Shown here: one piece after another, positions 707-45,242 of the stretch
Position numbering within the stretch: the stretch's first letter is position 1
Layout of the letters: every line of letters begins with the position of its first letter
DNA from: Bacteroidales bacterium
Lineage (GTDB): Bacteria > Bacteroidota > Bacteroidia > Bacteroidales > VadinHA17
DNA length: 45,242 nucleotides
Direction: 5' to 3'
Assembly (NCBI GenBank): GCA_016936435.1
Contig: JAFGXX010000189.1
Location: 1-45,242, forward strand
The notes under the pieces: model-generated
Seen by the model: only the letters and a program-made list of their open reading frames with translations
Database searches by the model: none
What the model was told of the DNA's origin: nothing
Made by a program: the position numbers and the translations under genes

Positions 707-1042
707 TCAGGCCAGCGACCTTACACATTCGTCCAGATCTTCGTGTATCTCCATGATGGTGTGAAGGTTCAGTGTTTTCAGAACTTCCAGAACCTGTGCT
801 TCAGGAGATGCCACTTTCATTGAGCAGTAATGATTGCGTGCGGTCTTCATGATGGAAAGCAGACATCCGAATCCTGAGCTGTCGATATATTGTACGCCTT
901 TCAGGTTGATAACCAGCCTTGTACTTCCGGAATGCAGCAGGGATTCTATACCCTTCAATAACTCTTCGGTGCCAAGTGCGTTGATCCTGTCGCCTGTAAA
1001 GCTTACGATGTCAACTTTATCCCTTTTCTCGGTCCGGAACAT
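707..1042 (-). CDS. STAS domain protein (anti-sigma factor antagonist type)
   Basis: A 111-residue single STAS-domain protein of the SpoIIAA/RsbV family. Such proteins bind a partner-switching kinase or another signalling protein and are usually controlled by phosphorylation of a serine. The family core is visible as RLVINLKGVQYIDSSGFGCL, with the acceptor motif DSSG at residues 54-57. The start ATG overlaps the stop codon of the upstream Hpt gene by one base (TAATG on the minus strand), so the two are probably translationally coupled. No anti-sigma kinase, phosphatase or sigma factor adjoins it, so the partner is unknown. Family assignment is firm; the pathway is inference. Confidence 0.88.
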   Translation of the reverse strand: MFRTEKRDKVDIVSFTGDRINALGTEELLKGIESLLHSGSTRLVINLKGVQYIDSSGFGCLLSIMKTARNHYCSMKVASPEAQVLEVLKTLNLHTIMEIHEDLDECVRSLA

Positions 1043-1404
1043 TAAAGCTTTTTTTTGATATTTTCAACAAGATCGTTCAGTTCCGTCGCAGCAGCGGTGG
1101 TCTCATAATGGTATCTTTCGACATAGGATCCGTATAGTGCCGTTTCAACACCCTCTTTTGCCTGAAGCTCAAATGTCTTAAGCATTGCAGCCAGATCAGC
1201 CATGCCCATTATTGCCACCGACGATTTAGCCTTGTGTGCGAGTAAACCGAGATTATAATAATCCTTGTCTTCAAGCAGGGTTTTCATTTCAGTATAAATT
1301 TCTCCGGCCTGTTCAATAAACATTGCGACGATCTCCAGCGTAACGCTGTAATCACCGCCCGATACCGAATCGAGATATTCAGTATTTATGTACTTGTAGG
1401 TCAT
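1042..1404 (-). CDS. Hpt (histidine phosphotransfer) domain protein
   Basis: A stand-alone 120-residue Hpt-domain protein. Hpt proteins carry a phosphoryl group on histidine between response-regulator receiver domains in multistep phosphorelays. The acceptor motif is LLAHKAKSS, with His57 as the likely phosphorylated residue, in a mostly helical protein. A longer reading frame begins at 1452, but the ATG at 1404 gives the normal Hpt N-terminus (MTYKYINTEYLDSV), so I chose it. The gene is first in a two-gene unit and overlaps the STAS gene by one base. No receiver or kinase is adjacent in the window. Calling it an Hpt domain is well supported; the relay it serves is unknown. Confidence 0.83.
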   Translation of the reverse strand: MTYKYINTEYLDSVSGGDYSVTLEIVAMFIEQAGEIYTEMKTLLEDKDYYNLGLLAHKAKSSVAIMGMADLAAMLKTFELQAKEGVETALYGSYVERYHYETTAAATELNDLVENIKKKL

Positions 1405-1503
1405 GCTTATAAGACTGCATTTAGAATAAAAAGGATGCAAAGAATAGAACAAATATAGATTTTTTTTCTTTCCCGTCTTCCTCTGCCTCTTTGAAAAGGT
1501 ATT

Positions 1504-1532
1504 TTGAATACGGGAAATTAGTGCTACTTTTA
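1504..1532 (+). promoter_or_regulatory. Candidate Bacteroidota promoter for the PorE-like gene
   Basis: A TTG at 1504-1506 is followed after 18 bases by TACTTTTA (1525-1532), one mismatch from the Bacteroidota -7 consensus TAnnTTTG. Transcription would start near 1538, giving a leader of about 15 bases before the ATG at 1554. Not tested. Confidence 0.4.
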
Positions 1533-1553
1533 TAGTGATAAAAACCGACCTTT

Positions 1554-3674: not shown

Positions 3675-3722
3675 CAGAAGTCAGCTTTTGACGAACAGCA
3701 AATTCATTTATTTGTGTTCCCC

Positions 3723-3756
3723 AAACCGGCCTTGAAGTATTTGATACAGCCGGTTT
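3723..3756. repeat. Inverted repeat between the PorE-like gene and gcvT
   Basis: An 8-base perfect inverted repeat, AAACCGGC (3723-3730) and GCCGGTTT (3749-3756), surrounds an 18-base loop in the 149-base gap between the PorE-like gene and gcvT. No T-run follows on either strand, so it is not a classical intrinsic terminator. It could still end the upstream transcript or lie in the gcvT leader. Confidence 0.45.
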
Positions 3757-3823
3757 CCGGATAAAAAGAAACCTGTTCCGCACACAGTTACTGAATTCAG
3801 ATTAATCTAAAAATGACAATTCG

Positions 3824-4942
3824 ATGAAAAATACTCCATTTACCAATTTACATGTTAAAGCCGGGGCACGAATGGTCCCTTTTGCAGGCTTTAACATGCC
3901 GGTTGAATATACCGGGATCACCGAAGAGCACCTTGTAGTCAGGCAGAAGATTGGTGTCTTTGATGTGTCGCATATGGGTGAGTTTGTGGTAAAGGGACCC
4001 CGGGCAACAGAATATCTTCAGTATATCACATCAAACGATGTGTCGGCCCTTTACGATGGCAAGGTACAATATTCATGCTTTCCCAACGGAAGGGGAGGCA
4101 TCGTCGACGACCTTCTCGTTTACAGGTTCGATGCCGAAAAATATCTGCTGGTGGTCAATGCTGCAAATATCGAAAAGGACTGGGAGTGGTGTGTAAGTCA
4201 TTGTGCAAAATTCGGACTGACACCCGGTGAGGAACTCGTCAACGAATCTGATTCAATAGCCCAGCTGGCAGTTCAGGGCCCCTTAGCCCTAAAGGCAATG
4301 CAGAAGCTTACAGGTGCCGGGGTGACTGACATGGAATATTATACCTTCAGGGAAATTGAATTTGCGGGCATCAGCAATGTGCTGTTTTCAACAACAGGCT
4401 ATACAGGAGCAGGAGGTTGTGAGTTATATGTAAGGAACGAAGATGCTCTGAAATTATGGGATGCTGTTTTTGAGGCAGGACAGGAATTCGGGATAAGACC
4501 TGTCGGACTTGGTGCCCGTGATACCCTGAGACTCGAAATGGGCTATTGCCTTTACGGAAACGACATCAACGACCAGACCTCACCGATAGAGGCCGGTCTG
4601 GGCTGGATAACCAAATTCACTCCCTCGAAGGATTTTATCGACCGTGAGCTTCTTCTTAAGCAGAAGACAGAAGGAGTTGAAAGGAGACTGAAAGGATTCG
4701 TAATGATCGACAGAGGTATACCGCGACAGCACTACCCCATCGTTGATGCAGAGGGCTTAACCATTGGAGAGGTGACATCAGGAACGATGTCGCCCTGTCT
4801 GAAGCTTGGAATTGGCATGGGATATTTGTCGAAGGGATTCTGGAAGACAGATACTGAAATATATATACGTATAAGAAACAAAGATCTGAAAGCAAAGATC
4901 AGCGACCTTCCTTTTTACAGTGATGAAAGCAAGAAAGCTTGA
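3824..4942 (+). CDS. gcvT: Aminomethyltransferase, glycine cleavage T protein
   Basis: GcvT takes the aminomethyl group bound to the lipoyl arm of H protein, releases ammonia and transfers the carbon to tetrahydrofolate in the glycine cleavage system. The 372-residue length fits the family. Recognisable stretches are [14 protein letters not shown] near the N-terminus, [25 protein letters not shown] (folate-site region), [12 protein letters not shown] and [15 protein letters not shown]. The ATG at 3824 begins the conserved [17 protein letters not shown]. GcvP and GcvH are not in the window. The 3' end overlaps comB by about 20 bases, suggesting co-translation. Together with the serine genes downstream, the locus is rich in serine/glycine and C1 metabolism. 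Confident call. Confidence 0.96.
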
Positions 4943-5642
4943 GACATGTTTATCGCCGGCACTTTATGATGCTGAGTATCATAAAGGTTCGATAGTTGTC
5001 GTAATTGACATATTTCGTGCCACATCGGCTATATGCACTGCCTTTGAGCACGGGGTTAAATCCATAATCCCCGTTGCCGGAGTGGAAGAAGCCAGGGAAT
5101 ACAAGGAACGGGGTTATCTTGTGGCAGCGGAACGCGACGGATTTGTTCTCGACTTTGCCGATTTCGGCAATTCCCCTTTTAACTTCAGCCGTGAGACTGT
5201 AGAGGGTAAGACGATCGTATACAGTACAACGAACGGGACAGGCATAATTAAAAAGGCATCTTCGGCCTATGCAATAATAATAGCCTCTTTTCTTAATATT
5301 TCGGCTGTCACCGAATGGCTCCTGAACCAGAACAGGGATGTGGTTCTTTTCTGCTCAGGCTGGAAAAACAGGTTCAATCTCGAAGATACCGTCTGTGCCG
5401 GAGCACATGCCGAAAGACTGATGAACAGCGGCCTCTATTCAGCCGACTGCGATTCGACACAAGCGGCACTGGATCTCTGGTCTCTGGCAAAGAACGATCT
5501 CCCGCGATATATGGAAAAAGTGGCACAACGTTCAAGGCTTCGCGAAAAAGGCCTTGACGATTGTATCAGCTTCTGCCTCGGATATGATTATACAAGGAAA
5601 ATACCTATAATTAAAGACGGGATTCTTGTTGATAATATTTGA
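4923..5642 (+). CDS. comB: ComB-family 2-phosphosulfolactate phosphatase
   Basis: A 239-residue member of the ComB family, named for the Mg-dependent phosphatase that turns 2-phospho-3-sulfolactate into sulfolactate in coenzyme M synthesis. Typical stretches are [44 protein letters not shown] and [17 protein letters not shown]. An in-frame GTG at 4920 directly precedes the ATG at 4923, and I prefer the ATG. It starts inside the end of gcvT. Coenzyme M is not expected in Bacteroidota and no ComA is present, so the true substrate is unknown. Its position just upstream of serC-serA, in a window without serB, raises the possibility that it acts on another phosphorylated C3 acid. Family call is firm; substrate is open. 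Confidence 0.87.
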
Positions 5643-18742: not shown

Positions 18743-21700
18743 TCAGCGCAAAGGCTCAGCTTCATTAAAAACATCTTCCATCGTCATTCGCTGGATGAAT
18801 TTCTCCATCCTTTCTTCAACCGATATCATGTAGATATAGGGATTTTGGTTTGTTGATTCAGGGTGCCGCCTTTCGTTAAGTTTTTTGGTTGCAATCAGCG
18901 TGTTATAGTTGTTGTTCCCCGCCTGCGTCATGAGGTTGCCTGTCAGATATGAAAAGTAAAAGTAATTTGAGTTATCGGCTTTGAGATAGATGTCAAAAAG
19001 ATCGCCCGAGCGCCTTCTCTGTATCTCTATGTAGCCGTCTACGTACAGGTTAACAGGTTGCTTACCAATGAATCCTATACCAATCCGGCCTTCTGAACGG
19101 AACGATGAAGTTGCATCATTCCAGTATAGGTTTACGTCGTTGAGTACCAGTTCATAATTAAATTCCTTTGGCAGGCCCCCCGTAGTTCCGAACAGGCTCA
19201 TTTCTTCATTTATTCTTGTCGCTGTTTCTTCTCCAAGAAGGTCTTTCATCCCCTTTCTGTATAACTCGCTGTTAAGGTTTACAGGCTTGAGGGTTGTCAG
19301 AAGTTTGATGTCATTGCTCATTATTGCAAGTGCTTCTTCATCGAAGAAGAAATCAAAAGCCAGGATGGCATTCATTCTTACTTTCCCGGAGTCGATATTA
19401 TGGGTTATCTTCCCGGCAGCAGCCATTCGTGCCAGGTTGAAATCTGTGCCCAGGTCAAGTCTGCCTTCTCCCGATAGTACGCACATGTTCCTGTCGAAAG
19501 CCACCATATTTCCGTGGCGTGTCGGGTCGGCGATTTTTTCGAGGGAAGCTATAAGATAACGATTTTTGACTTTTTCAAAATAAAGATAACCACCTGGCTT
19601 AACTACAGCCACATCAGTCCAGGATTTCTGTGCCGAAAGGAAAGCGGGATATATATGGATAGAATCGAGGTTGATGAACGATCCGGTGAACACCATATTG
19701 TCGTTAATATCGCGTGGTTTTTCGCTTACCGGTATCATGACGTTCTCAGGATCGATCAGCGAGCTGAATTTGATTGTATAGGATCTCAATCCTCTGCAGT
19801 CATGTACGACACCTGCTCCCCCGCTGAAAAAAAGGTGTTCTTCGGGGGCGCTGAGTGTGACATCGCCTGTGAAGGAGAATGCCGGACTGAGCATGAATTT
19901 TGCGTTTGCAGGAATATAGCCTTTTGCCGTTGTAACCATTGAATCCACGGTTATCTCCGGGAAACTGATCTTTTGAATTTCATTGTTTTCATCGGTATAA
20001 TCGTACACAGCACTGCCTGAATAGCGTTTTGTCGATTCAATGTTTATTGAGGCGCTGTTGAGGAGGTGGCGGTTGTTCACAGCCACTATTGCATTTTCGA
20101 GCTTATCGATCCTTCCTCTTCTGCGTATTGTTATCTTCCCGTTGCCGGGCTGAATGAGAGCGTCAGCAACAGGTATGTAATTTATATTCTCTGCTTCAAT
20201 ATATTCATCGTCAAGAAAATATCTGCCCTTCCACGACGAAAATGAAATAGTATCACCTATAACATTAGTAGCCAGGAATGTAGGCCGGTCGGGGTTGTTC
20301 CGGTCAACATCCAGGAGCTTATCTGGCGTCAGCAGCGGCGTTTCGGATTTGCCTTCCTGCTCCATCCCGAGTATGCGGGTGTCCATGTTGTATGTGAAGT
20401 TGGTCATTTTGCATACGTACTGCACTTCCGGAAATTTTACAACAGAGCTGTCGGTATTCAGACGGAAACTGGTCTTCCTGAGTCCGAAGTCGACATCGGT
20501 CCTCGCATTCTCAGCGATAAAAGAATAGCCGCTCGTGGTCTTTGAAAGAAGGTTATAGTCGGAAGTGTCGGCATGGATAGATTGCGAGGTGAAGCTGAAC
20601 AGGTCAGATGTGATCCTCGAATCAGGTGTCCCTATTATTCCCGATCCCTTCAGTGAACCCGGAGTAAGAACAAGGTCTCCTGCCAGCATAGTGCCGTTAC
20701 CAAACATATCGAAGTTCTTGTCTTCTGTATTCCGTGCAATAAGTTCGTCATTTGTTGTAAGCCATTTTATATCCACATTTTCGGCTTTCAGTCCGGGGTA
20801 TATTCCAGTACCGTCGTCGTCGATAGTAAATGTTTCTGCCAGTGCAACCATTGAATCGGGGAAGAACCTGAATTCGTCCGACTTAACTGTCGCTGTCAGG
20901 TGCTTCAGTGTCCCGCTTCCGGTCATTCCGTCGCTGCTCATCACCAGGTTGTCAAACATACTCCCTTTGGAACCATATACCTCAAGTCCTTCTTCAGGAA
21001 TATTCATGTTGAATCCAAGTGAATTGTTTTCCTGTACGGTCAGATACTGGGGCATCGGCTCAAGAATGTTACCCCCGCTAAATTCTCCCGACAGTTTTAT
21101 TTCCTCTGTCCTGAAATGGTCGATGTTCTCATAATTGAAAGGATCCACCCTGAAGAAGAAATTTTCCCTGGCGTATACACCTTCAAGTCCTGGTATATCG
21201 TCATAAAAGATATATGAATATGTCAGGGCATTGAAGATCGGATACTGCTTCAGGCTTTTTAGTCCTGACTTATTATCGGGATGGTCAATAAAAAGTTCGG
21301 CTGTGCCGAGCTGAATGAGGTTCTCAATTTCTTTGATGAGAGACCTCCCGTTTTCATCTTTTTCGTCTGTCTCAACAGCCAGCCTGATTGAATCAATTTT
21401 CTGAAGATCAATCCTGAAAGTGTCGTAATCAAAATCAAATTCATGTCCGAATATAGTAAAAAGACCTGCCTGCACGACACCGTCAAACTGAATTTTCCTG
21501 TTTCGGCCTATTACCACTCTCTGATCATATGGATAGATGGCAACACGTTGTGAATCACTAAGATAAATTGCCTGTACTCCATTCACCGTGATCAGGTTGT
21601 CCTTCAGATCCAGGATCGCATTATCGACAGGAGCTTTCGTTTCGCTGGAAAAATAAAGTACATCGTAATCTTTCTTTTTCGCAAAAGCAGTAAGGAAGTC

Positions 21701-23239
21701 ATCAACTTTTTTCTTGAGGGTTATTTCATTGAAGGTTCTGTTATAGAATACGAATCCTTTGTTAGCCATGTCGATACACATTGAGGTTACAGCCTCAAGA
21801 GGTTTTTTCATCCATTTGGCAAGTTCTTCGACAGGGAAGGTGTCGGAATAATACCAGTCGGCAAATTTTCTCAGGCGGTTAAGAGGATGGTACTGATCAA
21901 TACCCGAAAGTCTCAGGAAATAGTTTGCATCGAAATATGATGCTGACTCAAAAGCAGCCATTCCGAGCGCTGCTCCCCTTGGTCTTGTCATTTTGATCTT
22001 TGATTCATTCATGTTCCACGACAGAAGCTCAAAATACATGTCGAGGTTATGGAAAGAGTTGAAATAGGGACTTTTGGAGACGGGATTGGCAGCCCTGTAA
22101 AGGTTAACGAGTCTTTCTCCGGCATTATATGAGAAACCCAGGTTGGAATGGTATATCGAGTCCTCTCCCAGATAAAGTGTAGCTGCCGTTTCAGCGCTTG
22201 CCAGGCCGTTCTGGTCGAACAGGTACTCGGTGGACGTAATGTTGAGATAAAGGGTGTCATTACGGTAAAGTGTCACACGTGCAGGGATTGCGCTGGTTCC
22301 GGTACCCTTGATGGCAGCTCCTTCAATTGTCATCCCTCCTTCGTAGTTAACACCTTCATATATATTTTCGAGTTTGAATTCCTTCATGTAGGTCTCAAAT
22401 TTCGGGAAGTTTGCATTTTGTTTGTTCCTGAAGCTGATGGCCTGATCTGTCAGTACTCCCCTCACAGGTTCCCTGAAATAGGTTTTATGTGTAAGCCATG
22501 CCGAGTCGATGGTAAAGTTGTTCCTTGAGGTGTTTATTATGAAGTCTTCAATTTCGGCATATACCTCAGCGGCTGGATAACCTGCTTTTTCCCATGTGAC
22601 TTTGCCCTTTTTACCATGGAACTCCATTATCTCCGGGAAATAGACTCCTGAGACATCATATATTTCGGTGCTGTCTCTTAATGAGAAGCAGGTAAGTGTC
22701 GCGTTTTTTATTTCTGCGGTAAATGAGGTGTCGTGGCTGAATACCGGCAGGCTGTTCTTGACCTGCCATCGCAGTGAAGGTGTTTCGGACAGGATGTTGT
22801 CGCTTACCATCATACTGGTGTTCTTTACATACCTGTCGACAATTTCATTGTTTAATCTCGGATTGAATAGTATCTCGCTAAGTCCTGCCAGCCAGTCGCC
22901 GAGGAGCTGATCTCCGGAATTTTTATCGATGAAGACGTTGAGGGCTTTTATCAGGTTATGGTAATGAGGAACCGTTCGCATCGACCTGCCGTGATACTGG
23001 CTTGTGATGTCGATTATCCTGACCATGTTAATTTCTCCGAAAGAAGCGCTGTCCCACCTGGCAAAAAATGTGTTCAACCCGGCCTTTTGTACATCGTTCA
23101 TGTTGGCTCCGAGGAAGGTTGTGAGTTCCGTTTTGAACTTTTCAGGATCGCCGGTGAAAGGAGACCGCACCTGGCCCATTGCCCTGCAGGGCAAAAGCAA
23201 CAGGAGAATAAATGCGGAGATATACAGTTTGTTTTTCAT
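18743..23239 (-). CDS. Very large secreted protein of unknown function (1498 residues)
   Basis: A 1498-residue exported protein with a Sec signal peptide (MKNKLYISAFILLLLLP, cleavage near RAMGQ). Two starts are possible, 23257 or the ATG at 23239 that begins the signal peptide directly; I use the latter. The N-terminal ~330 residues look partly helical. The middle and C-terminal parts are strongly beta, with repeated units; for instance SLKGSGIIGTPDSRITSDLF and GMTGSGTLKHLTATVKSDEF have the same GSG-hydrophobic-SD-aromatic pattern. No catalytic motif or known domain could be recognised. It lies between tpiA and rsmE in a housekeeping operon, suggesting a conserved envelope role in Bacteroidota rather than accessory DNA. 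Real gene, function unknown. Confidence 0.88.
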   Translation of the reverse strand: MKNKLYISAFILLLLLPCRAMGQVRSPFTGDPEKFKTELTTFLGANMNDVQKAGLNTFFARWDSASFGEINMVRIIDITSQYHGRSMRTVPHYHNLIKALNVFIDKNSGDQLLGDWLAGLSEILFNPRLNNEIVDRYVKNTSMMVSDNILSETPSLRWQVKNSLPVFSHDTSFTAEIKNATLTCFSLRDSTEIYDVSGVYFPEIMEFHGKKGKVTWEKAGYPAAEVYAEIEDFIINTSRNNFTIDSAWLTHKTYFREPVRGVLTDQAISFRNKQNANFPKFETYMKEFKLENIYEGVNYEGGMTIEGAAIKGTGTSAIPARVTLYRNDTLYLNITSTEYLFDQNGLASAETAATLYLGEDSIYHSNLGFSYNAGERLVNLYRAANPVSKSPYFNSFHNLDMYFELLSWNMNESKIKMTRPRGAALGMAAFESASYFDANYFLRLSGIDQYHPLNRLRKFADWYYSDTFPVEELAKWMKKPLEAVTSMCIDMANKGFVFYNRTFNEITLKKKVDDFLTAFAKKKDYDVLYFSSETKAPVDNAILDLKDNLITVNGVQAIYLSDSQRVAIYPYDQRVVIGRNRKIQFDGVVQAGLFTIFGHEFDFDYDTFRIDLQKIDSIRLAVETDEKDENGRSLIKEIENLIQLGTAELFIDHPDNKSGLKSLKQYPIFNALTYSYIFYDDIPGLEGVYARENFFFRVDPFNYENIDHFRTEEIKLSGEFSGGNILEPMPQYLTVQENNSLGFNMNIPEEGLEVYGSKGSMFDNLVMSSDGMTGSGTLKHLTATVKSDEFRFFPDSMVALAETFTIDDDGTGIYPGLKAENVDIKWLTTNDELIARNTEDKNFDMFGNGTMLAGDLVLTPGSLKGSGIIGTPDSRITSDLFSFTSQSIHADTSDYNLLSKTTSGYSFIAENARTDVDFGLRKTSFRLNTDSSVVKFPEVQYVCKMTNFTYNMDTRILGMEQEGKSETPLLTPDKLLDVDRNNPDRPTFLATNVIGDTISFSSWKGRYFLDDEYIEAENINYIPVADALIQPGNGKITIRRRGRIDKLENAIVAVNNRHLLNSASINIESTKRYSGSAVYDYTDENNEIQKISFPEITVDSMVTTAKGYIPANAKFMLSPAFSFTGDVTLSAPEEHLFFSGGAGVVHDCRGLRSYTIKFSSLIDPENVMIPVSEKPRDINDNMVFTGSFINLDSIHIYPAFLSAQKSWTDVAVVKPGGYLYFEKVKNRYLIASLEKIADPTRHGNMVAFDRNMCVLSGEGRLDLGTDFNLARMAAAGKITHNIDSGKVRMNAILAFDFFFDEEALAIMSNDIKLLTTLKPVNLNSELYRKGMKDLLGEETATRINEEMSLFGTTGGLPKEFNYELVLNDVNLYWNDATSSFRSEGRIGIGFIGKQPVNLYVDGYIEIQRRRSGDLFDIYLKADNSNYFYFSYLTGNLMTQAGNNNYNTLIATKKLNERRHPESTNQNPYIYMISVEERMEKFIQRMTMEDVFNEAEPLR

Positions 23240-23347
23240 GTTACCTTTTTTTACCATTCATTCTCCTGTTATTTACCGGTGTATTTATCCGGTGGATGTC
23301 CGGCTCTTGCAACCGGAATTATTTATCTGGTATCCGATGCGGGGATG

Positions 23348-37310: not shown

Positions 37311-38372
37311 TTATTTATCGCGGGGATATTTGAATTCGTGATAGTATATATTCAGAGCAATATAGTCTACTACACGTTTGGCAAAGGTCATGTCGTGGAG
37401 TGAGTCGACGAGAGTACTGAGAACTTCCATTCCCGGCTTTATCATCTCACTGAGATTTGCTGTAGTGCCGTCGTCGAATGTCAGGAGAATGTCCCTCTTG
37501 CGGCAGATGGTACCGGTGGTATCGCTGTCGTCGATGATCCTGGCAGCGGCATTGGCCTGCAGAACACCGTCGAGCCAAACCTGAATGGAATCAAATTCCG
37601 AACTCCTTACAATATCTACATTTCCAATTGTTAGAATATAGGTTCTCTCGAAATCATCGTTCATACGGCTGCCGGAGAAGACTTTTTTCTCCATTAAAAG
37701 GATCTCATCTTCCTCGAGAAGTGCAAAAGAAAGAGAGATGGTGTCGTTATACCTTTCTTTTGCAACTCCTATGCTGTAACCTTCAGCAAACTCAAATTCT
37801 GAATTGTAGTTCCGGGTTTCATATCCTTCAGCCATCGACATCATATCGAGCGATCCTATGCTTTCATCATCAAGTGTAAAGTCTGCAAGCAAACGGTAAT
37901 CATATTTGTTGAAAAGAGAATAGTAGTAATGGTAGTCTGAAGCAGCTATAGTGAAATTGTTATCAGGTGTTGACTCCTTGAAAATATATTCATAAAGATT
38001 TCTCGGATGCAATGCCATGCTCTCCGGCATGTTCACTATCAGTGAATCGCTTTCTCCTGTCTTATGGAAAAACCTTACAGGGAAAGGGCACCAGTGATAC
38101 ATCTCACGATAAGGGCTGAAATCATATACTCCTGCAATCATGTCAAGGTCAATGCTATCCCTGAAACCTTCGTCATTCTTGCCGGGTTCAACGGTGACGG
38201 TCAGGAGTTCGTATCCGCCTGAAGCCGAAATATCATACGCAGCGTCATTGATTTTTGCAGCAGCAGTTTCGATTGAATTCCTGAGGCTCGTTCCGGAATC
38301 GAATTTGGAGCAGCCTGTCAGAGCTCCAATAAGCAATGCCATGATAATCAGAATTTTCCTTTTCATAATCAT
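37311..38372 (-). CDS. Lipoprotein of unknown function
   Basis: A 353-residue lipoprotein precursor. Two ATGs (38372 and 38366) allow the start MIMKRK or MKRK, followed by a hydrophobic stretch and lipobox GALTGC. The mature part is beta-rich, acidic and rich in Tyr/Asp, with stretches such as TIAASDYHYYYSLFNKYDYR and DDFERTYILTIGNVDI. I do not recognise a domain. The gene stands alone: convergent with the PL11 gene (5-base gap) and preceded by its own exact -7 box at 38414-38421, so it is not simply read through from the PKS operon upstream. Probably envelope-located. Confidence 0.8.
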   Translation of the reverse strand: MIMKRKILIIMALLIGALTGCSKFDSGTSLRNSIETAAAKINDAAYDISASGGYELLTVTVEPGKNDEGFRDSIDLDMIAGVYDFSPYREMYHWCPFPVRFFHKTGESDSLIVNMPESMALHPRNLYEYIFKESTPDNNFTIAASDYHYYYSLFNKYDYRLLADFTLDDESIGSLDMMSMAEGYETRNYNSEFEFAEGYSIGVAKERYNDTISLSFALLEEDEILLMEKKVFSGSRMNDDFERTYILTIGNVDIVRSSEFDSIQVWLDGVLQANAAARIIDDSDTTGTICRKRDILLTFDDGTTANLSEMIKPGMEVLSTLVDSLHDMTFAKRVVDYIALNIYYHEFKYPRDK

Positions 38373-38571: not shown

Positions 38572-38955
38572 TTACACTCTGAATTCGCCTTTGAAACTAC
38601 AGAAGACCGTTTTTTCAAAGTGTATAAGCGATGAACAAAGAAAGCTTCCCTGGTCCGTATTACTGAGCTCTATGCCGAAGTCAATAATATTGTTTTCAAC
38701 CGGATTTACGAAATTCAGGAATTTAATGACCGGCGCTTTAATTAACCTCGCTTCACTGTCAAGATGAAGTGTGATCAGTTCCCTTAGTATCTCAACAGTT
38801 GCCATACCCGGCAATACAGGATTACCCGGGAAATGTCCGCTGAATACAGGATGTTCCGGAACGATTTCAACTCTTATTGTTATTTTATTAACAGATTCTG
38901 TGCTTTTTTCCAGTACCCTGTAGAGTCCCTTTATTGACAAATCCTCAGTTTTCAT
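38572..38955 (-). CDS. FabZ-like 3-hydroxyacyl-ACP dehydratase
   Basis: A 127-residue hotdog-fold dehydratase that should remove water from 3-hydroxyacyl-ACP to give the trans-2-enoyl chain. The FabZ signature is present as HPVFSGHFPGNPVLPGMATVE with catalytic His41 and Glu55. It is the last gene of the PKS operon and overlaps the lipoprotein gene upstream by 11 bases. In aryl polyene pathways dehydratases of this kind produce the conjugated chain, often as heterodimers; only one is in the window. It may also be a general fatty-acid dehydratase paralogue, but the operon context argues for a pathway-specific role. Confidence 0.87.
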   Translation of the reverse strand: MKTEDLSIKGLYRVLEKSTESVNKITIRVEIVPEHPVFSGHFPGNPVLPGMATVEILRELITLHLDSEARLIKAPVIKFLNFVNPVENNIIDFGIELSNTDQGSFLCSSLIHFEKTVFCSFKGEFRV

Positions 38956-39580
38956 CTATTCTGGTCAGTTGTATGTCAAGCTTAATGTTTTTGTGTGAAA
39001 TCAATATCGAATCAGGAGCCTCCGGAGTGTTGCTGAAAAAACCGATCTTCAGTTTGTCGCATAATAATCCCGGACTGACAAGTTCTTCAACCTTACATGT
39101 ATTCGCGTTGATGAAACAGAAACGTTTTCCTGCATCGTCGGTCGATCTGATGATCGTCCGTGATCGGCTGTCGGTTAATACCTTTGAACGGGAATCGTCG
39201 GAGACACTGTAGAGCATGAGGGAAAAATCATTGCCCAGGGTTCTTATCAGCGCTTTCCTGTTAACAGCCTCCATACAATAATGTACTTCATAATTTTCAG
39301 GACTGAAAAACTCCAAATCGAACACCTTGATCCCTGTTTCTGTAATGAAAAGGATCCTGCGGCTTTCAGTTGTTGGCTTTATAAGTATTATCCCGCTGAA
39401 GTGATTGCGGTAGATACTGACCGAGCTCCGGAAAAGGAAGCGTCCTGTATCTTCCGTGAACCACGAAAATGATCCGGTTTTGCATTCAGGAGGGAGGGAT
39501 GTCGGTTTGAAACTGTTCAGGCTCATCGAACATCCGCTCAGCAAGATGATCAGCAGGCTGCTAAAAGCTAAATTTTTCAA
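38945..39580 (-). CDS. PKS-operon lipoprotein (TTG start)
   Basis: A 211-residue lipoprotein with signal LAFSSLLIILLSGC, lipidated at Cys17. The start codon is TTG at 39580; the in-frame stop lies only 15 bases upstream and a later Met (MSLNSF) would lose the signal peptide, so TTG is well supported. The mature protein is beta-rich with SFSWFTEDTGRFLFRSS and SGIILIKPT. Small lipoproteins following a LolA-like gene (the DUF3261-like type) occur in aryl polyene clusters, and this one may be the equivalent, but sequence similarity could not be tested. It overlaps LolA by 20 bases and the dehydratase by 11. Confidence 0.8.
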   Translation of the reverse strand: MKNLAFSSLLIILLSGCSMSLNSFKPTSLPPECKTGSFSWFTEDTGRFLFRSSVSIYRNHFSGIILIKPTTESRRILFITETGIKVFDLEFFSPENYEVHYCMEAVNRKALIRTLGNDFSLMLYSVSDDSRSKVLTDSRSRTIIRSTDDAGKRFCFINANTCKVEELVSPGLLCDKLKIGFFSNTPEAPDSILISHKNIKLDIQLTRIDEN

Positions 39581-40202
39581 TGGGTATTCCGGTATTCAGT
39601 TTCTTATTGACAAAATCAATTTTCGTGTAATCCTCACCCGACTCAAGCATCATAATTGACGCCACAGTAAAGTCTTTTTTGTCGAAGCGGATATGTACCT
39701 CATTCAGCATCTGCCTCATCTTTTCATTTTTTGGGACGAGCTTCACCAGGTAATGATCTGCACTCTCCAGAAACTCTGATGAATATTGTTCTTCATCCTT
39801 CAGAATGTCACCCCTGATGCAGCCTCCGATGAATTTGTTCATCTCGCTGAACATCCTGTTTGATTCAATATCATATACTTTACGGTTCCTTTCATCGCGG
39901 GTATACAACTGTCCGTTGCTGATTATTATCAGATACTTGTATGGCTGTGTGTATTCCCACCTGATATTGTTTTCCCTCCGGAAGCAAAAATGACCTTGTG
40001 AGATTATCTTTTCTGCCAGGACGCTGAGATTTTTTTCCTGTAAAAAGTCGCTTTCTATAGTTTCTGTTTCTGCCGACATCTTTTCAAGTCCCGACATAAA
40101 ATTCCGGGTGTCGGCTATGGGAACATAATTCTCCTGTGCCCTGACTGTGAGAACAGTAAAGAGCATAATGCACAGGAGCGCCAGATATTTAGTTTTTTTC
40201 AT
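39561..40202 (-). CDS. LolA-like outer-membrane lipoprotein carrier
   Basis: A 213-residue periplasmic protein of the LolA-like family, with a signal peptide (about 1-21, ending LTVRAQ) and a beta-rich body containing ETIESDFLQEKNLSVLAEKI and GHFCFRRENNIRWEY, typical of LolA folds that shield acyl groups. The frame is open to 40211 but the first three codons include a TTG; the ATG at 40202 is the better start and gives a 14-base overlap with the deacetylase gene. LolA paralogues in aryl polyene clusters are thought to carry the hydrophobic product across the periplasm. Good family call, cargo inferred. Confidence 0.83.
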   Translation of the reverse strand: MKKTKYLALLCIMLFTVLTVRAQENYVPIADTRNFMSGLEKMSAETETIESDFLQEKNLSVLAEKIISQGHFCFRRENNIRWEYTQPYKYLIIISNGQLYTRDERNRKVYDIESNRMFSEMNKFIGGCIRGDILKDEEQYSSEFLESADHYLVKLVPKNEKMRQMLNEVHIRFDKKDFTVASIMMLESGEDYTKIDFVNKKLNTGIPIEKFSF

Positions 40203-40968
40203 ACGCTTCAATACCTAAGTGTTTATCCAGTCTTTCAAATGAAAGATCATTTTGTCTGGCAAATTTTATGAATTTATCCGTAACATGTATTGTCCTTTCA
40301 AGAGTATCGTGGAACAGGACAATATCCCCGGGTTTTATTTTACCGGTTATCCGTGAAAGGATCTTATCCTGGTCTTTAGTTACAGTATCCAGGGAACGCA
40401 GGCTCCAGCCGGCTACATGATAATTTTTATGTCGGACGATATCGGCGAGGGGAGGATTTGTTACTCCATACGGAGGACGGAATATTTTTATTTTCTTGTT
40501 TATTAGGCTTCCGATCAGTTCTTCAGTCTTTTCGACCTCGGCAAGCATGGATGACCTGCTGAATATATCGAAGAAAATACTGTGTGACCAGCTGTGGCCT
40601 CCTATAATGTGGCCTTCCCTGTCGATCCTCCTGATAAGATCGGGGTTCTCAAGTGCTTTTTTACCCGTAACAAAGAAGGCAGCCTGAATGTTTTCCCTTG
40701 CAAGGATGTCAAGCAGGGCAGGTGTTACCCTCATGTCAGGGCCATCGTCAAATGTAAGGGCTACAGTTCTTTTTTCCACGTTACCACGGCAAAGGGCTTT
40801 AACAAACATACCTGATTTTATGTCGGCCGATCCCCATGCCAGCAGAACGATATATGCAATAATGATGCCGGCGTAAAAAAAAAGTGAAACACCAAGGAAA
40901 AAATCAGCTATTGCCAGTGCAGCAATAAGGCAAATAAAAATGACTGATATGGTCCTGTATTTCAGCAT
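40189..40968 (-). CDS. NodB-type polysaccharide deacetylase with membrane anchor
   Basis: A 259-residue protein with two N-terminal transmembrane segments (about 7-24 and 27-46) and a NodB domain. Catalytic landmarks are TFDDGPD (Asp74, Asp75), the zinc HxxxH in HSWSH (His125, His129), RPPYG, and a late VLFHDTL. Family 4 enzymes remove acetyl groups from N- or O-acetylated sugars. Its start overlaps the end of the chain-length-factor-like gene by 7 bases, so it is translationally tied to the PKS operon. A glycan deacetylase is not needed for polyene building, which suggests a role in linking or tailoring the product, or an esterase-like activity on the chain. Fold call secure. Confidence 0.9.
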   Translation of the reverse strand: MLKYRTISVIFICLIAALAIADFFLGVSLFFYAGIIIAYIVLLAWGSADIKSGMFVKALCRGNVEKRTVALTFDDGPDMRVTPALLDILARENIQAAFFVTGKKALENPDLIRRIDREGHIIGGHSWSHSIFFDIFSRSSMLAEVEKTEELIGSLINKKIKIFRPPYGVTNPPLADIVRHKNYHVAGWSLRSLDTVTKDQDKILSRITGKIKPGDIVLFHDTLERTIHVTDKFIKFARQNDLSFERLDKHLGIEAYEKN

Positions 40969-42020
40969 GATGACACCATGATCAGGCTATGGGCTCTGTT
41001 ATGGAATTGATTGTAAATAAGCAGCCTGTTAATATTTCCATATTGCAGGTCATCGAGTCTCATGATCTCCGGGATACGTTGTTCCCTGATAATGCCATCG
41101 GCCAGTGCAAGAGCGAAAGCTGCAGATGTCCAGTATTCGCCCGACAGATGCTTGTAATATGCAGCAGGTATGCTACTGAAGATTTTTTTCTGAAGGTTCC
41201 CGTATACGGAATCATTTGAGATGTCTCCGTTTATCCCCAGAAGAAGTACCTCAGGTCTGTTTCCGGCAGAGTCAGCGAAACTCTTCAGCCATTCTTCCGT
41301 TTCCCCCTTGCCTGAAGTGTTAAAAAATGTCTGAACCGAGGTGATTTTAGTCGTACAGTGCAGACCCTTCTCTTTTCCGAGAACAAAGAAGGTACTGCCT
41401 TCTCCGGCAATGGTACCCGGGGTCTTATATTCCCTGAGCCTGAGGCTGTCAACCTTCTCCTTCTTCCAGAATCCAAGTCTGTCGGTTATTTTGAAGAATT
41501 CAGGAGTCAGTTCGTCGAGTCCGCCTGCAAGGACATTCTTTGCTTCACCCTCGCTGATGAGCATCAACCCGTCTAAAAGGGCGTTTTCGAAAGAAAATAT
41601 CCTGTGACCGTAAGTGTTGTTGTAGTTATTGCATTTCAGCATCAGTGCTATTGATGAGCCAACGGTGTTATGTGTCGACTGGATAAAGGGAGTAGGGTTC
41701 AGAAGTTTTTCGTCATTTTCATATATAGTGGTCAGAAATCTCACAGTATCCTCAATACAACCGAAACCTGTTCCCGTAATAATGGCATCGGGTGTTTTTA
41801 TTTCAGCTGAACCAAGAGCTTTTAATGCAGCACAGCTTCCTGACTTGATGATGCGGCTCATCCGTCTTGCCACCATGGGATCCAAATATTCCGACCAGGG
41901 AGGGTCAGCTGATTTCAGAAATCTGACATCACGGTAGCCGACAGGAGTATCGGGCAAAATACCGGCAGAAAAGGTATTTTGTGGAGAAACAGCGCTAACC
42001 CCGTTTATATATGCCTCCAT
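40962..42020 (-). CDS. Chain-length-factor-like ketosynthase homologue, catalytically degenerate
   Basis: A 352-residue thiolase-fold protein like the beta-ketoacyl synthase N-terminal-like proteins called chain-length factors. Aligned by eye without gaps to the neighbouring ketosynthase, Ile141 (HRIFSFENALLDG) takes the place of the catalytic Cys, Asn264 (GINGDISND) that of the first His and Glu295 (HLSGEYWTSAA) that of the second. It therefore should not condense, but fits a partner subunit that shapes chain length, like ApeC beside ApeO. The frame is open to 42086, but the ATG at 42020 is one base after the ketosynthase stop and starts the conserved MEAYINGVSAVSP. Confident fold; role inferred. 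Confidence 0.87.
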   Translation of the reverse strand: MEAYINGVSAVSPQNTFSAGILPDTPVGYRDVRFLKSADPPWSEYLDPMVARRMSRIIKSGSCAALKALGSAEIKTPDAIITGTGFGCIEDTVRFLTTIYENDEKLLNPTPFIQSTHNTVGSSIALMLKCNNYNNTYGHRIFSFENALLDGLMLISEGEAKNVLAGGLDELTPEFFKITDRLGFWKKEKVDSLRLREYKTPGTIAGEGSTFFVLGKEKGLHCTTKITSVQTFFNTSGKGETEEWLKSFADSAGNRPEVLLLGINGDISNDSVYGNLQKKIFSSIPAAYYKHLSGEYWTSAAFALALADGIIREQRIPEIMRLDDLQYGNINRLLIYNQFHNRAHSLIMVSSC

Positions 42021-42021
42021 A

Positions 42022-43248
42022 TCAGCATTTTGAAAAAATAAGACTTGTGTTGTTCCCTCCGAAGCCGAAAGAATTGGAGAGCACATTTTTAAGTGTCACA
42101 CCTGTAATAAGGCTGCTTACAGGCTCGAAATCAAGTTCTGTCATCTTTGCGCTGAGCTCTTTGTTAGGCCAGATACTGTTGTTTTGAATGGCCAGCAGGC
42201 TGAAAACGGCCTCTATAGCACCTGCTGCTCCCAGTGTATGACCCGTAAGCGATTTTGTCGAACTGACAGGAGGTACCCGTTGACCGAATACCCTTTCAAC
42301 CGCTTTTCCCTCCGACAGGTCGTTGTTTTTTGTACCCGTGCCGTGAGCATTAATGTAGTCTATACTTTCAGGTCCGATACCTGCTTTCTCCAGGGCTCTG
42401 GTCATTGAGATTACGGCTCCTTCTCCTTCGGGAGAGGAGGCTGTCTGATGATATGCGTCACAGGCGTTACCGTAGCCTGTTATCATTCCGGCTGGTTTTT
42501 TACCTGTCGCTGAGACAATCTCTTCCGATTCCAGTACCAGATACGCAGCACCTTCTCCTAGGGTGAGACCGTTCCTGTCGTTATCGAAGGGCCTGCATCC
42601 TCTTTTATCGAGTATCATCAGACTGTTAAATCCGTTTATGGTAAACAGGGTGAGGGCATCGGTTCCACCTGCAATCACCCTTCCGAGAAAACCGTTGCTT
42701 ATCATCCTGGCAGCCAGGAGAATGGCGTTGGCTGATGATGAACATGCTGTGCTTATTGTGGAAACATGATCCCTGATGCCGAAAGCTTCGGCTATTTTTT
42801 CTGTATGGTCGCCGACGTCGTGGTTGATGACATATCTGAGTCGGCCGGCGGCATTGTTGTGCATGAACCTTTTGAAGAATTTTTCGGTATTGTCCATACC
42901 GCCCACAGTCGAAGCCGATATCAAACCCGTCGGAAATTCCCCGGTGTTTTCGATGCCTGCACTTTCAATTGCTTCACGTGCAGCTATAAGGCTTATGAGG
43001 GACGTGCGTGATAAATGTTGTTTCTTGCTGATACCAGCCATTTCCCTGAGACTGTCATTGGAGGCTTTTACTTCTGCTACAGGAATATCATCTGCATGTA
43101 TGGTGTCGATAAATGATATCCTGCCAATACCACTTGAAGAAGATCTCAGTGATGCCAGATTTTCCCCGGTATTAAATCCTGCGGCGGAGACAATACCTGC
43201 ACCTGTTATATAGACTTTTTGCAACACTTTTTTTAAATAGAATAACAT
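42022..43248 (-). CDS. Beta-ketoacyl-ACP synthase (KS, FabF-like)
   Basis: A 408-residue elongating ketosynthase. The catalytic triad is complete: Cys169 in STISTACSSSANAIL, His302 in INAHGTGTKNND and His337 in SLTGHTLGAAGA, plus GFGGNNTSL at the C-terminus. The open frame begins at a TTG (43269), but the ATG at 43248 gives the normal N-terminus shortly before VYITGAGIVSAAG, and a GAGG lies 11 bases ahead. It lies 34 bases after the ACP stop and one base before the degenerate KS partner, an arrangement like KS-CLF pairs of type II PKS. It likely extends the polyene chain. Confident. Confidence 0.94.
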   Translation of the reverse strand: MLFYLKKVLQKVYITGAGIVSAAGFNTGENLASLRSSSSGIGRISFIDTIHADDIPVAEVKASNDSLREMAGISKKQHLSRTSLISLIAAREAIESAGIENTGEFPTGLISASTVGGMDNTEKFFKRFMHNNAAGRLRYVINHDVGDHTEKIAEAFGIRDHVSTISTACSSSANAILLAARMISNGFLGRVIAGGTDALTLFTINGFNSLMILDKRGCRPFDNDRNGLTLGEGAAYLVLESEEIVSATGKKPAGMITGYGNACDAYHQTASSPEGEGAVISMTRALEKAGIGPESIDYINAHGTGTKNNDLSEGKAVERVFGQRVPPVSSTKSLTGHTLGAAGAIEAVFSLLAIQNNSIWPNKELSAKMTELDFEPVSSLITGVTLKNVLSNSFGFGGNNTSLIFSKC

Positions 43249-43282
43249 GACCGGAGAGACCTCAGACAAGCTCTTTCCCTCT

Positions 43283-43540
43283 TCAGTCCCTGTTGTTTTC
43301 GCTAATAAATACGGCCATCGATTTCACTGAATGGAGGATTTTTTTACCTTCTTCCGCCGTGTTTATTTTAAGACCATATTTTTTTTCCAGCAGCACTGTC
43401 AGTTCCAGTGCATCGATAGAGTCGAGTCCAAGTCCGTCGACAAATAAAGGCGCTTCTGCATCAATGTCTTCAGGCTTCATCTCTGACAGATTGAGGACTG
43501 ATATTATTTCTCCCTTAAGTTTTTGAACAAGCTCTTCCAT
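43283..43540 (-). CDS. Acyl carrier protein
   Basis: An 85-residue acyl carrier protein. The phosphopantetheine serine is Ser41 in GLGLDSIDALELTVLLE, in a helical, acidic context typical of ACPs. It lies 3 bases after the preceding gene and 34 before the KS start, so it is the operon's dedicated carrier. It should hold the growing chain; a second ACP, usual in aryl polyene clusters, is not in the window. Confident. Confidence 0.95.
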   Translation of the reverse strand: MEELVQKLKGEIISVLNLSEMKPEDIDAEAPLFVDGLGLDSIDALELTVLLEKKYGLKINTAEEGKKILHSVKSMAVFISENNRD

Positions 43541-43543
43541 AAA

Positions 43544-44182
43544 TTATCTCCTGTTATAAATTGACTCTGCAACTGAGGGCTCAAAATTAGCAATTCCCTC
43601 TACAGTTTCTTTTCTTTTTTCGATTAAATAAAGTACCGATTCGTAGTTATTGCCGTCAATCTCGGTCCAGCCGGCAAGGCAGCATTTAACTATATCACTG
43701 TAAAATAGTTGTGAGACATAGTTTACCAGGAAAACGGGATTGAAACTTTCTGTAACGAAAAAGTTTCCTTCACCGGTTATCTTATGTCTTATACATATCT
43801 CGCCGATTACGACGTTCGGGAGGGTGTAAACGAAAATGGAAGGACTGGGAAAATAATCTGATCTGTCGGAGATGGACTTCTGATGATTTCTGTCGGTGTC
43901 AAGTGAAGAGGAAGAATTCATAAGTATTATTCCTGTTTCGCTGCCTGCATACCGGTCGCTTATCTTTTTTTTATTTATCAGAATATCAGCAGTCAGGAAA
44001 CCTAGTCGCGAGAGCTTGTCCATTTTATGAAATTTAGGATAGTTGACCCCGAAATGCCGGTACACTCCCGTCGAAAACTCACTGAACAGGGCTTCGTTGC
44101 CCTTATACAGATGTTCACCATCCACGATGACAAGATTATCCCGTATGCAACAGTATCCCGTTATGACGATTTCTTCATTCAT
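43544..44182 (-). CDS. Short KS-like protein lacking the active-site cysteine
   Basis: A 212-residue protein that looks like the N-terminal half of a ketosynthase: EIVITGYCCIRDN, KFHKMDKLSRLGFLTADILI and a core ETGIILMNSSSSLD followed by PNVVIGEICIRHKITGEGN. Where KSs carry TACSS, it has FVTESFNP with Ser146 at the cysteine position; the C-terminal half with the two His residues is absent. It overlaps the partial KS gene by 4 bases (ATGA). It is too well coupled and too long to be debris, so it may be a structural partner. Fold assignment is by eye; function unknown. Confidence 0.72.
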   Translation of the reverse strand: MNEEIVITGYCCIRDNLVIVDGEHLYKGNEALFSEFSTGVYRHFGVNYPKFHKMDKLSRLGFLTADILINKKKISDRYAGSETGIILMNSSSSLDTDRNHQKSISDRSDYFPSPSIFVYTLPNVVIGEICIRHKITGEGNFFVTESFNPVFLVNYVSQLFYSDIVKCCLAGWTEIDGNNYESVLYLIEKRKETVEGIANFEPSVAESIYNRR

Positions 44183-45242
44183 TGTATCGAAAATGATATT
44201 ACAGCGTTACAGCCTCCGAAGCCCGAGGCAATTTTAAGGCATTTGCCGGTATTGACCTTAATTGCTGAACGCGTTATGTTCAGGGGATGGCTTACCCCCA
44301 TTTCGGTGAATCCCATAGTGGAAGGCACAACTCCGTTTATAAGCGACCAGATGCTCATTACGGATTCTAATATTCCCGCCGCTCCGAGTGTATGTCCCCA
44401 GTATCCCTTGAGGCTGTTGACCGGTATTTCCTGCAGTCCCGCCCTGGTAATTGCTATCGACTCCATTTCATCGTTATAGGGTGTGGCTGTTCCGTGTGCA
44501 GAAATGAATGCAATATCCTCCGGCTCTTTTTCGAGAAGCTTACTGATAGCAAGGTATAATCCTTCGCCGGTCCTTGAAGGCCCTGATATATGGTTCGCAT
44601 CGTTGCTTGAAAATCCGTGTCCCGCCTTCACAGGTTTTTTTTCTGTGCTGAAGGGTCTTGCTGACAGGATGAGGGTCCCTGAACCTTCTCCCAGCGAAAG
44701 ACCGTCCCTCGATTTATCGAAGGGCCTGCAGGGACCTGTGCTCAGCGATTTGAATGAATTGAATCCTGAGTAGACAAACTCCGTGATGATGTCGGTCCCG
44801 TTTATGATAACATGGTCGAAAAAACCGCCCCTGATCAGTCTTGAACCTGTAATAATGGCCTGAATACCGGAAATACAGGCGTCGGAAACAACCAGTGGCT
44901 CATTAGCGAAACCGAAATATCTCTGTATCTTTCTTGCTGTATGCCAGAGGTAGACATCTTTTAACTGCGGTGTCCCCCCGTGGTCACTTCGCAGCAGGTC
45001 TATATTTCCTTTGGTTGTAGATAAAATAAAGAGTGTACGTTCGTTATGAATTTCGAAACCTGTTTTTTCCAAAACATCGTTGATAGAAAGAACAGCCATC
45101 TTTTCAAGGCGCGAGTATAACCGTGGACTGGCGAGAGCTGAAAATTTATCATCCAGTAAGATGCTGTCTGCCAGTGAGGCATAGAATGGCTCAGGTGAAA
45201 TTGCGGTATCTTCATGCAGGCGGATACCTGTTTTTCCCTGCA
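44179..45242 (-). CDS. Beta-ketoacyl-ACP synthase, partial (runs off the right end)
   Basis: A ketosynthase with complete triad residues: Cys in VSDACISGIQAI, His in ISAHGTATPYND and His in GYWGHTLGAAG. An ATG at 45099 could be taken as the start, but the same frame stays open to the window edge and translates as a normal KS N-terminal region ending LYSRLEKMAVLSI, so the gene is cut by the window and 45099 is internal. At least 353 residues are visible; about 20-50 are missing. It may be the second KS (ApeR-like) of the pathway. Product confident. Confidence 0.92.
   Translation of the reverse strand, partial: QGKTGIRLHEDTAISPEPFYASLADSILLDDKFSALASPRLYSRLEKMAVLSINDVLEKTGFEIHNERTLFILSTTKGNIDLLRSDHGGTPQLKDVYLWHTARKIQRYFGFANEPLVVSDACISGIQAIITGSRLIRGGFFDHVIINGTDIITEFVYSGFNSFKSLSTGPCRPFDKSRDGLSLGEGSGTLILSARPFSTEKKPVKAGHGFSSNDANHISGPSRTGEGLYLAISKLLEKEPEDIAFISAHGTATPYNDEMESIAITRAGLQEIPVNSLKGYWGHTLGAAGILESVMSIWSLINGVVPSTMGFTEMGVSHPLNITRSAIKVNTGKCLKIASGFGGCNAVISFSIQ

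Follow-up and report, generated by a model that had tools for sequence, protein, structure and literature searches.

A flexirubin-type operon core at the contig end

The window analysed here is a whole contig of 45,242 nucleotides (C8, 1-45242) from a Bacteroidales source assembly (G000) of 3.21 Mb in 257 contigs, rated 98% complete. Nine minus-strand open reading frames (ORFs) run from 45240 to 38572 at its right-hand end, and we take them, with a probability of about 0.9, to be the core that flexirubin-type (flx) aryl polyene operons of the Bacteroidota share, here truncated by the contig end. The flexirubin-type (aryl polyene) pigments of the Bacteroidota are yellow-orange and are moved to the outer membrane. 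The genes encode, in order, a ketosynthase (KS1), a short ketosynthase-like protein (sKS), an acyl carrier protein (ACP2), a second ketosynthase (KS2), a chain-length factor (CLF), a polysaccharide deacetylase family protein, the proteins LolA2 and LolB2, and a dehydratase. All nine are open across their full visible length, and adjacent genes either overlap or have at most 13 bases between them. KS1 is broken by the contig end at 45242 and, judged against its relatives, has lost about 30 N-terminal residues, so that at least one assembly gap lies exactly there.

LolA2, a periplasmic carrier (39561-40211, minus strand), and LolB2, an outer-membrane acceptor-like lipoprotein (38945-39580, minus strand), both pass the cut-offs of flexirubin-specific NCBIfam models, the first scoring 210 bits (cut-off 125) with NF053544, 'flexirubin biosynthesis/transport protein LolA2', and the second 112 bits (cut-off 60, E value 2.9e-32) with NF053540, 'flexirubin biosynthesis protein LolB2'. 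One paper places lolB2 and lolA2 (Fjoh_1084-1085) in the flexirubin operon and describes them as always present in flexirubin-like loci (PMC11885536), and another recounts that the Flavobacterium johnsoniae fragment Fjoh_1078-1089 rescues a flexirubin-negative mutant (PMC3992019). These two models, the conserved gene order and the cut in KS1 bear out the preliminary description of this DNA, made from its letters alone, as an aryl polyene/flexirubin-like type II polyketide synthase operon truncated by the contig end. The extra envelope genes listed in that description are real ORFs, but the one at 38945-39580 is LolB2_flexi.

The same description held that the gene order matched no cluster that could be named, and this proved mistaken. 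A tblastn search with sKS led to two plasmid records, pAUEa of Aureispira anguillae and pPP6 of Persicobacter psychrovividus, both of which carry all nine genes in identical order. Upstream of the core on both plasmids are genes for an aromatic ammonia-lyase, FabG, a ketosynthase, an acyl carrier protein and a thioesterase, with an acyltransferase annotated only in Persicobacter, and downstream there is a DUF2062 gene. In Persicobacter the next gene encodes a 1267-residue protein that combines MMPL, acyltransferase and methyltransferase domains; after it come genes for an oxidoreductase, a C45 peptidase-family protein and an AMP ligase.

We then compared 80 loci, the best 80 of at least 587 confirmed sKS relatives from a scan of GTDB genomes; being fetched with sKS itself, they cannot show the frequency of flx clusters without sKS, and their gene lists hold only genes matching the reference set, so that unlisted genes may intervene. 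The named organisms include Flavobacterium, Aquimarina, Chitinophaga, Hymenobacter and Mucilaginibacter. KS1 was found in 75 of the 80 loci and KS2 or CLF in 78; among reference matches, KS1 lay directly upstream of sKS in 65, and ACP2 and KS2 directly downstream in 72. After exclusion of 21 loci with too little room on their contigs, all nine genes were present in order in 44 of 59, 33 of these without any other reference gene between them, while one to five members went undetected in the remaining 15. Recurrence of the order in dozens of related loci rules out chance. The series KS1-sKS-ACP-KS2-CLF-deacetylase-LolA2-LolB2-dehydratase is thus the usual flexirubin core in Bacteroidota, with sKS as a regular member, and the operon is an ordinary and widespread one, a known pigment gene set of which half stands at a contig end.

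Some loci depart from this arrangement. Four from Mucilaginibacter (L064, L070, L073 and L088) have KS1, sKS, KS2 and CLF, with no deacetylase, LolA2 or LolB2 detected and no ACP detected between sKS and KS2. The KS2-CLF pair is duplicated in five others (L013, L016, L017, L020 and L047); in L013 the extra pair (774-3313) has its own ACP, and other flx-type genes stand between it and the main core.

An unbiased test, unlike the loci fetched with sKS, was provided by 60 related genomes. The sKS profile matched eight of them (3 of 36 within the genus and 5 of 24 outside it), and LolA2_flexi was above its cut-off in exactly the same eight. The core is therefore patchy within a single genus, which argues against a role in primary metabolism.

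The preliminary description had called for a search for starter, ketoreductase and export genes. These were found in one genome of the same genus (G009), on a second contig. The G009 core (contig C265) is 54-82% identical to the window at the protein level, has LolA2 and LolB2 above their cut-offs and is preceded immediately upstream by a thioesterase gene. Another contig (C50) carries an ammonia-lyase, identified as FlxA by NCBIfam NF053541 (809 bits against a cut-off of 700), together with FabG (the ketoreductase), a further ketosynthase (KS0), a second acyl carrier protein (ACP1), a lipid-A-type acyltransferase and a 143-residue gene; divergent from this block are a GT2/DUF2062 protein and a 1282-residue MMPL/acyltransferase/methyltransferase protein. 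The 143-residue product ('hypA') is not called a dehydratase here, as it has no Pfam family. In L012 and L013, which are among the nearest of the fetched loci, the region upstream of the thioesterase gene holds FAD-oxidoreductase, C45 and AMP-ligase genes.

DarB and the nature of the product

A true flexirubin is a dialkylresorcinol ester, for which DarB is required. A DarB query from Aquimarina latercula (NF053539) matched Flavobacterium fluvii at 58% and Chitinophaga skermanii at 55%, and found no full-length DarB in any of the eight core-positive related genomes, three of which gave no match at all. One genome (G023) has a match of 37 amino acids at 57% identity that could be a real but cut copy. 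The other hits in core-positive genomes are partial, at 22-34%, and those in the source assembly and in G056 fall at FabH-like genes; in the source assembly, which has gaps, no match exceeds 30% identity, and DarA was not searched. Nor was DarB found in Cochleicola gelatinilyticus (G062, L080), which carries the core. Among the flexirubin-type cores without a DarB found are those of G062, G036, G038, G053 and G056, which suggests that such cores lead to dialkylresorcinol-free pigments.

Pfam PF08541 taken alone was too broad to serve as a test for DarB and was dropped in favour of the DarB query; in a search of five genomes it gave no match in G053 (99% complete) and one each in G023 and G056. 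A pair of KSIII-type genes on contig C94 of the source assembly was considered as DarB and rejected, its neighbours being an alpha/beta hydrolase, an olefin-type AMP ligase and an epimerase/3-beta-HSD-type protein. These genes make up an ole-like operon (L170, C94:438-5930) with the two KSIII-type genes adjacent, although its AMP ligase scores below the cut-offs of the olefin beta-lactone synthetase models. A doubled KSIII gene is also present in G009 (C147).

The product may instead be an aryl polyene acid or lipid that lacks the dialkylresorcinol half, flexirubin-like and not a true flexirubin, a candidate to which we give slightly less than an even chance. It agrees with the absence of full-length DarB from eight genomes despite a query able to find it in F. 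fluvii and C. skermanii, and with the assignment of the two extra KSIII genes of the source assembly to the ole-like operon. Against it stand the fragmentation of the assemblies, since the source assembly also lacks KS0 and the absence of DarB may be a gap of the same kind, and the fragment in G023, which may belong to a real DarB. The source organism itself may make an aryl polyene without an ester link to a dialkylresorcinol, a reading kept tentative by the assembly gaps and the unsearched DarA. This alternative would alter the product and not the identity of the core.

A half-size ketosynthase as a putative chain-length factor

Four of the nine proteins have the ketosynthase fold (KS1, sKS, KS2 and CLF), not three as the preliminary description was titled, and its own text implied as much. 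It was right that two ketosynthases have complete triads; the Cys, His and His motifs are intact in KS1 (DACIS/HGTAT/GHTLG) and KS2 (TACSS/HGTGT/GHTLG) and not in CLF or sKS. The flx letters used here were assigned by position from the text of PMC3992019 and from the locus of Chitinophaga skermanii (L059). KS1 (44179-45240, minus strand, open at the 5' end), which matches Pfam KS_N/KS_C and is 65% identical to the copy in G009, is by position the probable equivalent of FlxI. KS2 (42022-43269, minus strand) is recognized by Pfam and NCBIfam and matches ApeO (Protein Data Bank (PDB) 6qsp_A) in phmmer with an E value of 1.4e-58, with eight FabF-type sequences scoring above it; it is probably an ApeO-like elongation ketosynthase. 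CLF (40962-42086, minus strand; PF13723) lacks the active-site Cys, and its real start is probably the ATG at 42020, overlapping the stop of KS2. Its phmmer match to ApeC (6qsp_B) is weak (E value 4.3e-4) and ranks behind two FabF-type chains, and its counterparts in the Aureispira and Persicobacter loci are annotated 'chain length factor'.

The sKS gene (43544-44182, minus strand) encodes a half ketosynthase of 212 amino acids, lacking the nucleophile Cys and the C-terminal half, and by position is the likely FlxL equivalent. It has no Pfam or NCBIfam match above cut-off, its counterparts in the Aureispira and Persicobacter records are annotated as 'hypothetical' or 'KS N-terminal-like', and it was placed here by Foldseek, by profile comparison and by fusions. 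Alignments of 50 and 48 sequences have 13-15 invariant residues. The nucleophile column aligns near position 146 of sKS, and Cys occurs in none of 48 sequences at positions 145-150, in one at 144 and in six at 141; an earlier count of Cys in 21 of 48 rows was discarded, as that alignment was out of register and the Cys came from a conserved upstream stretch.

An AlphaFold2 model of sKS is a compact half ketosynthase (pLDDT, the predicted local distance difference test score, 92; pTM, the predicted template modelling score, 0.88). Foldseek ranks five chains from the ishigamide, AntDE:AntF and ApeO-ApeC complexes first for it, ahead of FabF; from their lengths, and from which chains the ketosynthase queries match, those five are apparently the CLF chains. 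The sKS profile aligned to that of the cluster CLF with a score of 37.6 (E value 1.6e-4, probability 50%, 168 columns), and to KS1, KS2 and KS0 with E values of 0.17, 0.12 and 0.025 (scores 17-23), the KS0 profile having 13 rows against 40 for CLF and KS2. Among PDB sequences, ishigamide chain B was the sole match of the profile below an E value of 0.02 (2.2e-5), and a second, weak match in G023 (4.4e-4) falls in the CLF gene of that genome. Taken together with the fusions described next, these comparisons make it most likely that sKS is a chain-length factor of minimal size and without catalytic activity.

As to its partner, KS1 and sKS are in one open frame of 567-605 amino acids in three of the eight core-positive genomes (G053, G055 and G056), and also in one of the 80 loci (L052). 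A model of the L052 fusion was confident throughout (pLDDT 95, pTM 0.95), implying that the two halves pack in a well-defined manner. It was built from alignment A6, which replaced an earlier one (A5) in which low identities indicated that most sKS rows had been misplaced, onto the KS1 half. VIA-align on the fusion model covered the KS1 half alone and is silent on how the halves are arranged. KS1 is the likelier partner of sKS, and KS2 the less likely one.

Several observations weigh against these assignments. The VIA-align Z scores of sKS are tied between a CLF chain (15.9) and FabF (15.8), so that the fold alone does not make sKS a chain-length factor, and the HHalign probability of its match to CLF is just 50%. 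A fusion of any kind involving sKS occurs in just two of the 80 loci. One of the two (L087, Mucilaginibacter, 3437-5284) joins sKS instead to KS2 in a frame of 616 amino acids with no ACP detected between them, and the fusions may therefore partly reflect gene adjacency. The fusion model, moreover, is of the protein of a relative and used an unpaired alignment, in which each row was either KS1 (27 rows) or sKS (38 rows).

If adjacency were all that the fusions reflect, sKS might be the partner of KS2 or a free-standing accessory subunit. The L087 frame speaks for this, as do the 78 of 80 loci in which sKS is unfused and the 10 of 80 in which its nearest upstream reference gene is a methyltransferase or an oxidoreductase. 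We judge it rather unlikely, since KS2 already has an adjoining CLF, KS1-sKS fusions are found in four relatives and the model of such a fusion is confident. The pairing of KS1 with sKS would fit a broader proposal, which we offer tentatively and, in view of the L087 fusion, at a little under even odds: that flexirubin-type pathways have two KS-CLF couples round one ACP, that the KS1-sKS couple has a half-size CLF and is fused in several lineages, and that in the examined Bacteroidales-like genomes the machine mostly lacks the dialkylresorcinol arm, so that the pigments are not flexirubins proper. Among the open-licence papers listed for flexirubin with ketosynthase or chain-length factor, no title or beginning of an abstract names a KS1-sKS pair. 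The proposal gives a Cys-less half ketosynthase a testable role as a minimal chain-length factor and, if true, would sort the five ketosynthases of flexirubin synthesis into working couples, with KS0 standing alone.

The second locus and the source genome

No counterpart of the second G009 locus came to light in the source assembly. KS0, present in all seven other core-positive genomes at 60-66% identity, was not found in it. Nor was FlxA, the single lyase fragment (C14:2-526) being HutH-like by score. The MMPL protein of the G009 type gave partial matches only (best E value 6.7e-8, 23-41% over at most 230 query residues), as did the DUF2062 glycosyltransferase (26-31%). With DarB also not found, production of the pigment by the source organism is unproven. 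A point against the flexirubin-type reading in general is that LolA2_flexi was above its cut-off in one of 14 control genomes, that of Bacteroides ihuae, where sKS was not tested.

Two candidates for the missing genes were rejected. The fragment C14:2-526 scores 154 bits to a HutH-type model against 93 to FlxA (cut-off 700) and reaches 29% identity with the Aureispira TAL, well below the 52-58% at which the lyases within the L141, L143, L144, L147 and L037 clusters match references. An MMPL protein of 807 amino acids on C220 has a partial match of 23% to the flx MMPL, and inspection by eye showed no flx genes beside it.

The second locus of the source genome may be either unassembled or lost. 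That the core is a decaying remnant, kept after loss of the second locus and making no pigment, would explain why KS0, FlxA, the flx MMPL and the glycosyltransferase were not found despite a completeness rating of 98%; we regard this as improbable, given that the nine genes are open over their visible length, that the ketosynthase motifs are conserved, that the contig breaks within KS1 at an assembly gap and that the second locus of G009 sits on a separate contig. Primary fatty-acid synthesis has a negligible probability, for although the ketosynthase, ACP and dehydratase belong to families of the fatty-acid synthase type, the genome has a separate ketosynthase on C15 and a FabH-like protein on C185, the core occurs in only 3 of 36 same-genus genomes, unlike primary metabolism, and LolA2_flexi and LolB2_flexi are present; a locus of fatty-acid genes alone, which the preliminary description had said would refute its aryl polyene reading, is not what we found.

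Proposed pathway and other genes of the window

For the flexirubin-type core we propose the following scheme. A coumaroyl starter derived from tyrosine, supplied by genes outside the contig, would be extended on ACP2 (43283-43540, minus strand; PF00550, and NF006617 at 77 bits against a cut-off of 70) by two KS-CLF couples, one on either side of the ACP. KS2 and CLF would be the iterative elongating pair, similar to ApeO-ApeC, and KS1 and sKS a second condensing pair in which sKS would serve as the catalytically dead half-size chain-length factor. Double bonds could be formed, after ketoreduction by a ketoreductase encoded elsewhere, by the FabA/FabZ-like dehydratase (38572-38955, minus strand; PF07977, 28 bits against a cut-off of 23), the last gene of the conserved set and FlxS-like by position. 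The flxP-like polysaccharide deacetylase family protein (40189-40968, minus strand; PF01522, E value 4.2e-32), LolA2 and LolB2 may help attach the lipophilic pigment or carry it across the periplasm to the outer membrane. Pfam assigns a family to seven of the nine genes, and LolB2 was placed by NCBIfam alone.

Directly after the operon there is an ORF of 353 amino acids (37311-38372, minus strand) whose N-terminus is lipoprotein-like by eye; neither Pfam nor NCBIfam matches it, and none of the matches of the G009 core locus is related to it. Elsewhere in the window, an ORF of 1504 amino acids (18743-23257, minus strand) has no Pfam match at an E value of 1e-5. A scan for tRNA genes found none, and scans for promoters (22 promoter-like sites against 17.0 expected) and terminators (6 terminator-like sites against 8.1 expected) gave nothing usable.

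Comparison with known systems

Flexirubin clusters are widespread, with 268 reported in five of six analysed Bacteroidetes classes (PMC9248904) and 1,234 counted in a Flavobacteriaceae set (PMC10734526), and a flexirubin prediction is listed for groundwater Bacteroidales bins (PMC5383146). Reference clusters are those of Chitinophaga pinensis (Cpin_1853-1877) and Flavobacterium johnsoniae (MIBiG BGC0000838), BGC0000839 being a cluster from the Chitinophagia. The set flxA-flxY includes five putative ketosynthases (FlxC, I, L, N and O), the dehydratases FlxF and FlxS, and the export-type genes flxP-U (Schoner 2014, PMC3992019); the window has four proteins of the ketosynthase fold. Its order of deacetylase, LolA2, LolB2 and dehydratase is that of the Chitinophaga and Flavobacterium loci (L059 and L034). 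In contrast to the C. pinensis and F. johnsoniae clusters, the same-genus G009 has its initiation and export genes at a second locus, and in contrast to known flexirubin clusters, DarB was not found in the source assembly.

The closest structural parallels are KS-CLF complexes. ApeO-ApeC of the Xenorhabdus doucetiae aryl polyene system (PDB 6qsp) is described as a ketosynthase and a chain-length factor (PMC8253772). KS2 matches chain A and CLF matches chain B by sequence, and chain B, a chain of 238 residues that forms the fifth Foldseek row of sKS, is presumably ApeC, from its length and from the ketosynthase queries matching chain A. Compared with that system, the window seemingly has two couples round one ACP, and sKS is shorter at 212 amino acids. 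In the ishigamide KS-CLF (PDB 6kxd, 6kxe and 6kxf), chain B takes the first three places in the Foldseek search with sKS (best E value 2e-8) and is probably the CLF, with the ketosynthase queries matching chain A; it differs from sKS in having about 360 residues and in belonging to a different polyene pathway. The nearest precedent in size is PDB 7f28 ('crystal structure of a bacterial ketosynthase'), whose chain C, of the ketosynthase fold and 198 residues, is matched by sKS with an E value of 1.2e-5 and a TM-score of 0.60 by target length, and whose chain B is a ketosynthase of 400 residues matched by both KS1 and KS2. A half-size chain of the ketosynthase fold beside a full ketosynthase has thus already been solved.

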